Assembly: GCA_031292215.1 (NCBI GenBank)
Contig: JARLHO010000126.1
Span: 1-40,744, forward strand
DNA: 40,744 nt
Origin: Syntrophobacteraceae bacterium
GTDB taxonomy: Bacteria; Desulfobacterota; Syntrophobacteria; Syntrophobacterales; Syntrophobacteraceae
Direction of reading: 5' to 3'
Shown here: piece by piece, positions 9,998 through 31,160 of the stretch
Numbering within the stretch: the first letter of the stretch is position 1
Layout of the letters: every line of letters starts with the position of its first letter
Program-made: the position numbers and the translations under genes
The notes under the pieces: generated by a model
Database searches by the model: none
What the model saw: the letters and a program-made list of their open reading frames with translations, nothing else
Told to the model about the DNA's origin: nothing

Positions 9998-10269
9998 GGC
10001 TCAATCGGCCCCCTTTTTTCAAAGCTTACAATTACCACACATACGCCCACCTATCTCCTTTTGCAAAGTTGCAAATAAGGGGGGCGAGCGAGCCCAGCCG
10101 GTCCATGCGCGTCATTGCAAGCGACTGGAGAGTAAATCCCCCCAACCCCCCTTTGCAAAAAAGGGAGGCGATCGAGCCAAGCCCCTACAGGCGAGTCATT
10201 GCAAAAGGAGGTAAGTGGGGGCAGGTGCGGGTAAGTGTAAGCATTGAAAAAATGGGGGGCGATTGAGCC
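9998..10269. repeat. Outer inverted repeat enclosing MITE copy 1
   Basis: GGCTCAATCGGCCCCC (9998-10013, then TTTTTTC) and its near reverse complement at 10246-10269 (GAAAAAAT then GGGGGGCGATTGAGCC) enclose the 217-bp element. The same arm sequence occurs alone at about 3886-3922, so MITE copy 1 sits inside another palindromic repeat. Confidence 0.65.
10025..10241. mobile_element. MITE-like palindromic element, copy 1 (217 bp)
   Basis: It begins CTTACAATTACC and ends with the diverged reverse complement GGGTAAGTGTAAG. The interior matches copies 2 and 3, including CTATCTCCTTTTGCAAAG, GAGCCCAGCCGGTCCATGCG and a C-run then CTTTGCAAAAAAGG hairpin. No matching 9-bp target duplication flanks it, and its right terminus is the most diverged of the three. 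Non-autonomous: it encodes no transposase. Confidence 0.8.
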
Positions 10270-18618: not shown

Positions 18619-18895
18619 AGGTCCCATAGGGTGCTTACAATTACCCACACATGCGCCCACCTATCTCCTTTTGCAAAGTTGCAAATAAGGGGGGGCGAGC
18701 GAGCCCAGCCGGTCCATGCGCGTCATTGCAAGCGGCTGGAGAGTAAATCCCCCCAACCCCCCTTTGCAAAAAAAGGGGAGCGATCGGGCCAAGCCCCTTT
18801 CCCGGGAGTCTCCGCTAAGGGGTAAGTGGGCGTATGTGTGGGTAATTGTCAGCATAGGGTGGGCGGGTCTTATCGCGCCCGCCACCTCAATGGGG
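18619..18895. repeat. Left arm of a 49-bp inverted repeat, split by MITE copy 2
   Basis: With the 219-bp element and one copy of its target duplication removed, 18619-18633 joined to 18862-18895 is a 49-bp sequence. It matches the reverse complement of 19528-19576 at 46 of 49 positions. Within it, GTGGGCGGGT...CCCGCCAC forms a small hairpin, as in REP elements. Confidence 0.85.
18634..18852. mobile_element. MITE-like palindromic element, copy 2 (219 bp)
   Basis: Terminal inverted repeats start CTTACAATTACCCACACATG and end with the near-exact reverse complement CATATGTGTGGGTAATTGTCAG-like terminus at 18831-18852. Flanking 9-bp direct repeats CATAGGGTG at 18625-18633 and 18853-18861 are an exact target-site duplication. 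It has no coding capacity of its own. It inserted into the left arm of the inverted repeat around the GAF/response-regulator pair. Confidence 0.92.
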
Positions 18896-19576: not shown

Positions 19577-20109
19577 TTGATCGGTTTAAATCGGCACTGG
19601 CGAAGAATATTACGCAGGAAAGGGTCGTGTGGCGCCCTTACCGTGAAGCAATCTCCAGAGCTTGCCAACGCCAACCGGGAAGCTCACATTATGACGATGG
19701 GGATTAAATTATCGAGTAATCGTTGCAATGGTTCCCATTCACGCCTCCACTGCTCCTACATTTTGCCGTCCCCCCATTCTCACCATTGACTAGAGGCACA
19801 CTGCCCGACCACGGTGGCACACCGCCCGACGATGATGCCCCCCCACCGCCAAAGGCAGTGGCGTCCCCGGCGAAGCAATCCCGACAGCGGTGGCACACCG
19901 CCCCGACAGCGGTGGCACACCGCCCCGACAGCGGTGGCACACCGCCCTGACAGCGGTGGCGCACCGCCCCGACCTTGCAGCGGGTGCAACCGCTTCTTAA
20001 GTTGGCTGACAGAAGCATTCGATATGAGGCCGGCTCGGGATGGAGGCCGCCCGACGATCATTGCCCCCGGCTATTTTGACTTTCTTTTCCGCTCTTGCAG
20101 GATTTACCC
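19577..20109. other. Leader region upstream of nuoA
   Basis: About 530 bases without a gene. They contain a palindromic 22-bp tandem array (listed separately) and degenerate upstream copies at about 19796-19845 (GGCACACTGCCCGACCACGG and similar). The nuo promoter should lie here, but no clear -35/-10 or -24/-12 element was identified. Confidence 0.5.
19883..19970. repeat. Four tandem 22-bp palindromic units upstream of nuoA
   Basis: Units at 19883-19904, 19905-19926, 19927-19948 and 19949-19970 are identical apart from one base at the end of unit 3 and one within unit 4. Each contains the self-complementary core GCGGTGGCACACCGC (GCGGTG / CACCGC around GCA). The array ends 139 bases before the nuoA ATG. 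It could be a multi-site operator, a run of RNA hairpins in the leader, or a neutral tandem repeat. It is not a CRISPR: there are no spacers. Confidence 0.92.
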
Positions 20110-29635: not shown

Positions 29636-29660
29636 TGGCGGATGCGCCAGAGGTTGATAT

Positions 29661-29774
29661 GAAAAGAAGCGGGAAGCGGGAAGCAAGAAGCGGGAAGCAA
29701 GAAGCGGGAAGCAAGAAGCAAGAATGAAAAGCCATTTCCCGCGCCGCGCGGGACTTCCTCGCTTCCCGCTCCTT
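29661..29774. repeat. GAAGCGG heptamer hairpin element A (nuoI-nuoJ gap)
   Basis: Seven-base steps GGGAAGC/AAGAAGC run in tandem from 29661 to about 29723, then GCGCCGCGCGGGACTTCC, then the complementary right arm CGCTTCCCGCTCC up to about 29774. The arms can pair into a long imperfect hairpin. It sits between the nuoI stop and the nuoJ ribosome binding site (AAAGGGG). Confidence 0.85.
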
Positions 29775-29795
29775 ATTTTGAAAGGGGTAAAAACG

Positions 29796-30308
29796 ATGAA
29801 TACTGCCTTCTACATAGCGGCGATCGTCGCCGTGATTTCCACGCTCATGGTGATCATTGAGTTTAACCCGGTGCATGCTCTTCTCTACCTGATCGTTTCG
29901 CTTCTATCGGTAGCGGTGATCTTTTTTCTTCTGGGCGCCCCTTTTGCCGCCGCCCTCGAAGTGATCGTCTATGCCGGGGCCATAATGGTGCTGTTCGTAT
30001 TTGTAGTCATGATGCTCAACCTGGGGCCCCAGTCCGCCGCAGGAGAAAGGTCCGGGTGGCCTGGGCGTCTGTGGTTTGGCCCTTTTGTGCTAACGGCCGC
30101 GCTTTTGGCGGAACTGGTCTTTGTCCTGCGCGGCGGGGGAGCGGTCGGTTTTCGCGAGGTAGGCCCCCAAGAGGTCGGGCTCGCACTCTTCGGTCCGTAT
30201 CTTTTCGGAACCGAGCTGGCTTCGATGCTTCTTCTAAGCGGGCTTATCGGGGCATACCACCTGGGCATAGGCTTTAAGGCCGCCGGAAAGGAGAAAGATT
30301 CGCTGTGA
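29796..30308 (+). CDS. nuoJ: NADH-quinone oxidoreductase subunit J
   Basis: A 170-residue antiporter-module subunit with five transmembrane helices, including the conserved pi-bulge helix region ALEVIVYAGAIMVLFVFVVMML (about residues 52-73). AAAGGGG lies about eight bases before ATG 29796; the upstream open frame comes from the repeat element and is not coding. The stop TGA (30306-30308) is embedded in GTGA (30305-30308), the remnant of an ancestral overlap with nuoK (see findings). Confidence 0.93.
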   Translation: MNTAFYIAAIVAVISTLMVIIEFNPVHALLYLIVSLLSVAVIFFLLGAPFAAALEVIVYAGAIMVLFVFVVMMLNLGPQSAAGERSGWPGRLWFGPFVLTAALLAELVFVLRGGGAVGFREVGPQEVGLALFGPYLFGTELASMLLLSGLIGAYHLGIGFKAAGKEKDSL

Positions 30309-30329
30309 CAACGCTCGTAGGACATGTGC

Positions 30330-30457
30330 GAAGAAGCAGGAAGCGAGAAGCGAGAAGCGAGAAGCGAGAAGCGAGAAGCAGGAAGCAGGAAGCAGGAATG
30401 GAAAAGCCATTGCTCCCGGCGCCCCTTCCCTCGCCGCGCGGGACTTCCCCGCTCCTT
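30330..30457. repeat. GAAGCGG heptamer hairpin element B (nuoJ-nuoK gap)
   Basis: AGAAGCG-type units run from about 30331 to 30396, then GGAATGGAAAAGCCATTG, TCGCCGCGCGGGACTTCC and CCGCTCCTTC on the right. It has the same layout as elements A and C, with a shorter right arm. The 217-bp MITE copy 3 follows directly. Confidence 0.85.
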
Positions 30458-30466
30458 CTTTTGAAA

Positions 30467-30683
30467 CTTACAATTACCCACACATGCGCCCACCTATCTC
30501 CTTTTGCAAAGTTGCAAATAAGGGGGGCGAGCGAGCCCAGCCGGTCCATGCGCGTCATTGCAAGCGGCTGGAGAGTAAATCACCCCAACCCCCCTTTGCA
30601 AAAAAGGGGGGCGATCGGGCCAAGCCCCTTTCCTGGGAGTCTCCGCTTAGGGGTAAGTGGGCGCATGTGTGGGTAATTGTCAG
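30467..30683. mobile_element. MITE-like palindromic element, copy 3 (217 bp), inside the nuo operon
   Basis: Termini CTTACAATTACCCACACATG and GTGGGTAATTGTCAG are near-exact inverted repeats. Exact 9-bp target duplications CTTTTGAAA lie at 30458-30466 and 30684-30692. The body is nearly identical to copy 2. It is inserted just upstream of the nuoK ribosome binding site, so nuoK must be translated from an mRNA carrying this large hairpin. Confidence 0.93.
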
Positions 30684-30707
30684 CTTTTGAAAGGAGAATG
30701 ATTAGCT

Positions 30708-31013
30708 GTGACACCGCCCGTAGGACATGTGCTTATGCTTGCCGCAGTGCTGTTTCTTCTCGGGTTGCTCGGAGTTCTTGTCCGGCGCAATATCATTTTC
30801 ATGCTTCTTTCGATCGAGATCATGTTTAACGCGGCAGGACTTGCCTTTGTGGCAGCGGGCTCGCGATGGGGCCGCCCGGACGGTCAGGTCATGTTCATCT
30901 TCATTATCTCGATGGCTGCCGCGGAAGTATCGGTTGCGCTGGCCCTGGTGCTCCAGATGCACCACCGCCTTAAGCTCCTGAATACCGATGCCGCGCAAAG
31001 CATGCGAGGATGA
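30708..31013 (+). CDS. nuoK: NADH-quinone oxidoreductase subunit K
   Basis: A 101-residue membrane subunit with three transmembrane helices and the conserved acidic residues in [16 protein letters not shown] and in the [11 protein letters not shown] segment, part of the proton path. It starts at GTG 30708 with AAGGAG 10-15 bases upstream; no ATG is available near the correct N-terminus. A partial duplicate of its first eight codons lies at 30305-30328. It is separated from nuoL by hairpin element C. Confidence 0.93.
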
Positions 31014-31020
31014 TTTGAAA

Positions 31021-31146
31021 AGAAGCGGGAAGCGAGAAGCGGGAAGCGGGAAGCGGGAATGGACTCCCGCTCCCAGCTCCCCGTATCGCGCAGCGCGGGA
31101 CTTCCCTGCTTCTCCCGCTCCCAGCTTCCCGCTTCCCGCTCCTTCC
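31021..31146. repeat. GAAGCGG heptamer hairpin element C (nuoK-nuoL gap)
   Basis: It begins AGAAGCGGGAAGCGAGAAGC right after the nuoK stop, has GCGCAGCGCGGGACTTCC in the middle and a long right arm CCCAGCTTCCCGCTTCCCGC. Left and right arms are complementary over roughly 25 bases, the best-preserved hairpin of the three. Confidence 0.85.
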
Positions 31147-31160
31147 TTTAAGAGGTTGCC

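Follow-up and report, generated by a model that had tools for sequence, protein, structure and literature searches.

The locus considered here raises a simple question: how could two genes of the nuo operon, which overlap in the closest relatives, come to be set apart by repeat DNA without either of them being broken? The window (i.e., the whole stretch of 40,744 nt that was analyzed, a contig of a Syntrophobacteraceae bacterium) carries both genes, identified by NCBIfam equivalog matches above the cut-off, as well as a direct repeat that takes in the end of one gene and the beginning of the other:

29796-30308, forward strand: nuoJ (NF005162, 201 bits, cut-off 157), the last 23 bases of which are the 5' part of the first repeat copy
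30286-30329, forward strand: first repeat copy, with the nuoJ 3' end including AAGGAG, the GTGA overlap and the eight initial codons of a dead nuoK start
30689-30732, forward strand: second repeat copy, with the nuoK Shine-Dalgarno, the true GTG start and its eight initial codons
30708-31013, forward strand: nuoK (NF004319, 136 bits, cut-off 101)

A repeat search of the window recovered the two copies as a single ungapped 44-nt direct repeat with a spacing of 403, identical at 40 of the 44 positions (91%), the four differences falling at repeat columns 11, 16, 26 and 30, and the longest exact run being 14. Within the first copy the nuoJ TGA (30306-30308) lies inside GTGA, the GTG at 30305-30307 being the position of the duplicated nuoK start, while the former nuoJ frame of the second copy is now interrupted by a TAG. 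Both observations from which the earlier note had started, namely a 44-bp duplication of the nuoJ end and nuoK start with 40 identities and a nuoJ stop within GTGA exactly where nuoK would begin (30305-30308), were borne out. As this layout was read from the contig sequence, it could be asked whether two strain variants had merely been joined by the assembler: the genome is a draft of 177 contigs, and several heptamer arrays of the kind described below do lie at contig ends (11 flanks were skipped for that). An assembly overlap is, however, unlikely because there are four mismatches between the copies over 44 positions and their longest exact run of 14 is too short, the gene order is intact, and long flanking duplications are seen in three genomes (G000, G003 and G005); this explanation is thus considered very improbable.

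Even harder to believe is the reading that the 44 bp are a part of the inserted element rather than of its target, although the heptamer element between nuoI and nuoJ also ends with TTTTGAAAGG, matching the first bases of the second copy. The first copy is the tail of nuoJ and the second the start of nuoK, and the single junction of the relative G007 matches them at 34 and 33 of the 44 positions. A degenerate pattern of the first 29 bases (up to three mismatches) found just the two copies in the window (0 expected, 100 shuffles), an exact degenerate 40-base pattern matched 5 of 358 loci, every one spanning the nuoJ-nuoK site, and when the 450-bp region was compared with its own genome by BLAST, no other place covering the 44 bp appeared among the matches listed (40 of 283 candidates scored). 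A repeat family to which the 44 bp would belong, named in the earlier note as what would speak against its interpretation, was accordingly not seen in the window, the 358 loci or those 40 candidates.

What lies between the copies consists of two nested layers:

30330-30466, forward strand: left part of a GAAGCRR heptamer element, with the array at 30332-30398 (7-bp unit; TRF and pattern search) followed by a spacer up to CTCCTTCTTTTGAAA
30458-30466, forward strand: left 9-bp target duplication of the MITE, CTTTTGAAA
30467-30683, forward strand: nested 217-bp MITE with the inverted ends CTTACAATTACCC and GGTAATTGTCAG, within the heptamer element
30684-30692, forward strand: right 9-bp target duplication of the MITE, CTTTTGAAA

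The arrays have TRF periods of 7, 14 and 21, and no gene was seen inside the heptamer element (GAAGCRR repeats and spacer). MITEs are short elements with inverted ends and a target-site duplication (TSD) that occur in many copies. The stretch at 30467-30683 shares with this class the short length, the inverted ends and the many copies, the TSD being 9 bp here, and was assigned to it on its terminal inverted repeats (33-nt arms, 91% complementary) and fixed short TSD. At least 39 other places of 89-98% identity are present in its own genome (BLAST, 40 of 283 candidates scored), and 11 of the 14 copies with both ends located, among 16 copies examined, show an 8-9 bp TSD with at most one mismatch. 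The window itself contains a second copy (18634-18853, 97% identical, 9-bp TSD CATAGGGTG) and a more diverged third one (10018-10242, 89% identical, ends not located by the pattern), as well as two tandem repeats detected by TRF, a 22-bp unit present 4.3 times (19880-19973) and a 61-bp unit present twice with 80% matches (671-791). Because the MITE lies inside the heptamer element and has a 9-bp duplication of its own, it was the later arrival and leaves the 44 bp unexplained; a reading of these as its TSD was tried and rejected. The nuoJ-nuoK gap thus formed in two steps, the heptamer element first and the MITE later.

The state of the junction prior to these events could be approached through 13 relatives that have a NuoK match of E 1e-30 or better, the start codons being our own reading. 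The closest ones having the nuo operon, G007 (NuoK 94%) and G009 (85%), lack any insert and show a 4-bp ATGA overlap, which is also present in G154 and G372, whereas G047, G355 and G425 show a 1-bp overlap, G204, G170, G327 and G417 gaps of 0-9 nt, and G005 and G245 longer spacers. In total, the genes overlap in 7 of the 13 relatives, the two closest included, and in 11 of the 13 the spacer does not exceed 9 nt. Regarding the two with longer spacers, that of G245 (L357, about 1343-1490) amounts to ~145 nt, compared to 9 nt in G327 of the same genus, and G005 (L012, about 1424-1492) carries a heptamer hairpin of GTGATCA units at its junction, i.e., an element of this kind that inserted there independently. 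The GTGATCA arrays were a candidate second family for testing; this hairpin was their one exact triple-unit match in G005, and G000, G003 and G007 gave none.

The comparison with close genomes that the earlier note had proposed therefore did yield an ancestral overlap without an insert in both G007 and G009, so that repeat-free relatives lacking the overlap, its other point of possible refutation, are not what the two closest ones turned out to be. The exact form foreseen has to be amended, however, as these relatives show ATGA, GTGA being the form of this lineage found in both copies. Separation of the genes by a repeat insertion is supported as well, albeit not as a single event, since two nested insertions made the gap. 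The one claim that does not stand is that of a newly gained ribosome binding site for nuoK. In these relatives the nuoJ 3' end already includes a stretch resembling a Shine-Dalgarno (AAGGAGG in G007, GGAGG in G009), so that the signal predates the insertion, and the duplication copied and preserved it rather than created it. nuoK kept that signal because the duplicated block includes the old Shine-Dalgarno, the start codon and eight codons. Judging by these sequences, the earlier interpretation of the junction is supported and largely right.

The differences that the two copies have accumulated tell a somewhat less tidy story. At columns 11 and 30 the first copy agrees with G007 and at column 26 the second copy does, while at column 16 neither agrees with G007, and G009 has the base of the first copy. 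Both changes of the second copy upstream of its GTG sit in the disused nuoJ part, one of them creating the TAG that interrupts the former nuoJ frame, the second a TGA in the frame of nuoK, and comparison with G007 and G009 suggests that the column-26 change befell the disused nuoK part of the first copy. Simple decay of disused parts does not fit every change, though, because the column-30 change lies inside the working nuoK (Leu to Pro) and G005 carries at column 26 the same base as the first copy.

Might the duplicated start have instead been kept for a function, the GTG of the first copy opening a relay frame that would pass ribosomes from nuoJ on to nuoK? Such a frame is predicted:

30305-30676, forward strand: predicted open frame of 123 aa from the first-copy GTG through the array and the MITE

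With the MITE taken out, the distance from the first-copy GTG to the nuoK GTG is 177 bp, a multiple of three, and the frame would comprise 56 codons in the frame of nuoK and close with a TGA lying 6 nt ahead of the nuoK start; with the MITE present, however, it closes 31 nt before nuoK. A relay role is given little weight because the GAAGCRR units hold no stop codon on the forward strand, so that open frames arise free, and no second genome with the nuoJ-nuoK insert was found for a comparison of conservation; on this reading of the sequence it appears improbable.

The history that is judged to be quite probable would start with nuoJ and nuoK overlapping by 4 bp. A GAAGCRR heptamer element would have entered this overlap, leaving a 44-bp target-site duplication, either through a widely staggered cut in the target whose two single-stranded ends were then filled in, or through capture of the element at a break of this type. 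In this way the nuoJ end with its stop would have been retained in the left copy, and in the right copy the Shine-Dalgarno of nuoK together with its start and initial codons, and the 217-bp MITE would later have entered the heptamer element, producing its 9-bp duplication. Selection would retain those insertions whose duplication spares the neighboring genes, and it is to such a filter that we ascribe the survival of the long duplication here, as only a duplication of about this length leaves both overlapping genes intact; this filter, like the staggered break with fill-in, is something we infer from the final arrangement.

Whether anything comparable has happened elsewhere depends on how widespread these elements are. 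Matches to the GAAGCRR pattern number 266 in G000, 293 in G005, 22 in G003, 13 in G007, 5 in G036 and 1 in G020, whereas the remaining 53 of 58 relatives searched had no match, i.e., the occurrence of the arrays is patchy among relatives; a reversed control pattern gave 0 matches in G000 compared to the 266. Being built of 7-bp units in tandem and dispersed in many copies, they belong among heptanucleotide tandem-repeat elements. A tail of 45-70 bp past the array, common to elements L203, L207, L331, L332 and L343 (G000 and G005), indicates that some heptamer elements probably own a body besides the repeats. Two more of them flank the genes in question:

29660-29783, forward strand: heptamer element of related type in the nuoI-nuoJ spacer (also delimited as 29685-29785)
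31016-31148, forward strand: heptamer element of related type in the nuoK-nuoL spacer (also delimited as 31016-31121), with inverted arrays (32 nt, 88% complementary)

A strong hairpin is predicted to be possible for the latter (-76.9 kcal/mol, z -5.9). The nuoI-nuoJ spacers of G007 and G009 are short and without a GAAGCRR array, the one in G007 (L039) containing an array-like piece, AAAAGCGGGGAGC, possibly the beginning or a remnant of such an element, and the nuoK stop lies 1 nt from the nuoL start in G005, G007 and G009. A flank comparison detected no long flanking duplication at either the nuoI-nuoJ or the nuoK-nuoL element.

This flank test was carried out on sites among the matches listed in six genomes, with array-like sequence masked, and covered 89 flanks of 81 distinct elements, a sample rather than all the elements, from which 11 array flanks near contig ends had been dropped. 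A flanking direct repeat with a score of at least 32 was found in 5 of the 89 flanks (5 of the 81 elements), ranging from 21 to 44 bp:

nuoJ-nuoK: 44 bp, 40 identical
L242 (G003): 37 bp, 35 identical
L211, at recJ (G000): 29 bp, 25 identical
L331 (G005): 23 bp, 22 identical
L248, in cobB (G003): 21 bp, 19 identical

Weaker flank matches (L348, score 29; L244, score 27; window position 31022, score 24) were left uncounted. Mismatched flank pairs as a control would lead one to expect 0.06 cases compared to the 5 observed. Out of 20,000 random local places, 0.93% had a repeat scoring this high, giving a binomial P of 1.5e-3 (5 of 89), or 9.2e-3 (4 of 88) with the nuoJ-nuoK case, which had prompted the test, excluded. 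Requiring the left copy to end within 20 bp of the junction, a limit chosen after the five cases had been seen and satisfied by all of them, lowers the random share to 0.36% (about 0.3 expected compared to 5) and P to 1.8e-5 (5 of 89) or 2.9e-4 (4 of 88). The random places passing numbered 71, of which 61 came from four sources (L241, the window, L185 and L239). A rule that every heptamer element has a long TSD was rejected, as only 5 of 81 do; by the flank test the duplication is absent in the remaining 76, the two other nuo elements included, and these may be old, hidden by the masking filter or inserted otherwise.

Three of the four additional cases resemble the nuoJ-nuoK one in where the duplication falls. 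The left copy of L211 corresponds to the terminal part of a RecJ-like gene, stop codon included, that of L242 includes the stop of the upstream frame, and that of L331 stops at the second base of such a stop. At the L211 site, G007 goes from the recJ stop directly to TCGGT, the sequence adjoining the right copy in G000, and G009 has no array there. Separately, the recJ 3' end of G005 (L215) has a GGAATTA-type heptamer array with an inverted partner, which terminates the recJ frame about where G000 has its GAAGCRR element. L248 is an in-frame insert within a cobB/cbiA-like gene, intragenic when all three nuo elements are intergenic, and is found in G003 only, being absent from that place in 10 other genomes of the genus; the names recJ and cobB/cbiA are our putative assignments. 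Long duplications thus sometimes recur, and uninserted relatives are at hand for the nuoJ-nuoK, recJ and cobB cases.

The final sequence is equally compatible with template switching, in which a stalled fork would copy heptamer sequence from elsewhere and resume 44 bp upstream, producing a tandem duplication with filler without any cutting enzyme, as both routes lead to the same layout. The variable length of the duplications (21-44 bp, which is also a point against a single transposase), the lack of recognized fixed element ends and the very short insert of L242 (79 bp from start to start) would agree with it, and polymerase slippage has, as reported in PMC4679880, been proposed as the origin of heptamer repeats. 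The 45-70 bp tail common to some G000 and G005 elements is, on the other hand, unlike random filler. Template switching, the chief alternative, is regarded as rather unlikely, if by far not negligible, and staggered insertion is, as a matter of judgement, moderately favored over it.

Extending staggered insertion to the arrays in general, they might spread as short pieces of DNA that become inserted at breaks of long and variable stagger, leaving target duplications of 20-45 bp, a proposal that is offered tentatively and with less than even confidence. No enzyme could be linked to the arrays by the one search made for it, that for PF00078 (RVT_1): there are four partial matches in G000 and strong ones in G009, which has no array match, and an origin from a telomerase-like reverse transcriptase was set aside as speculative since PF00078 does not follow array abundance across 11 genomes of the genus. 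That the repeat DNA was made by a repeat-adding enzyme would be pure speculation. If the proposal were true, heptamer arrays could settle in gene overlaps, and even inside coding sequences, and leave the genes unbroken. Be that as it may, long target duplications with uninserted relatives represent a physical mark of the way in which some heptamer arrays, at least, arrive, and this locus illustrates that genes overlapping within a central operon can be separated by an insertion while both stay intact, the duplicate carrying the terminal part of nuoJ as well as the start signal of nuoK.

The heptamer elements themselves are of a known kind, as such arrays are known in Geobacter, Beggiatoaceae, Xanthomonas and cyanobacteria. 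Small dispersed repeats of the latter were reportedly treated by Elhai in 2008. For Geobacter metallireducens, 49 elements with four tandem heptanucleotides have been described between and within genes, together with other element classes whose repeats are paired on opposite strands (PMC2700814); unlike here, these are presented as predicted regulatory elements, the heptamers are other ones, and target duplications are not mentioned in the sections of that paper drawn upon. The Beggiatoaceae repeats form many intergenic arrays, often a short way upstream of a start codon and patchily distributed, with no transmission mechanism evident according to the abstract, but they are built on one fixed heptamer, TAACTGA, instead of GAAGCRR (PMC4679880). 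The GGGNATC heptamers of Xanthomonas and Nostoc are dispersed, mostly intergenic, include some inverted repeats and are, per the authors, generally not associated with mobile elements; the same paper, the main text of which does not contain the word "duplication", also cites heptamers of Calothrix (PMC4692102). As for repeat synthesis, telomerase-like DRT10 systems are characterized by a reverse transcriptase gene with a repeat-templating RNA, and the studied one adds 9-nt repeats (PMC12632851). Unusually long TSDs are, in turn, a feature of the IS1202 group of bacterial insertion sequences (16-28 bp in one subgroup), which have a transposase and terminal inverted repeats and come, in the sections drawn upon, with no mention of a heptamer array; the TSDs of the heptamer elements (21, 23, 29, 37 and 44 bp) do not keep to that subgroup's range, three of them exceeding it (PMC10132070). 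The literature found, to the extent that its text was available, held nothing tying heptamer arrays to long target-site duplications, and it is these duplications, not the already known heptamer elements, that are new relative to it.
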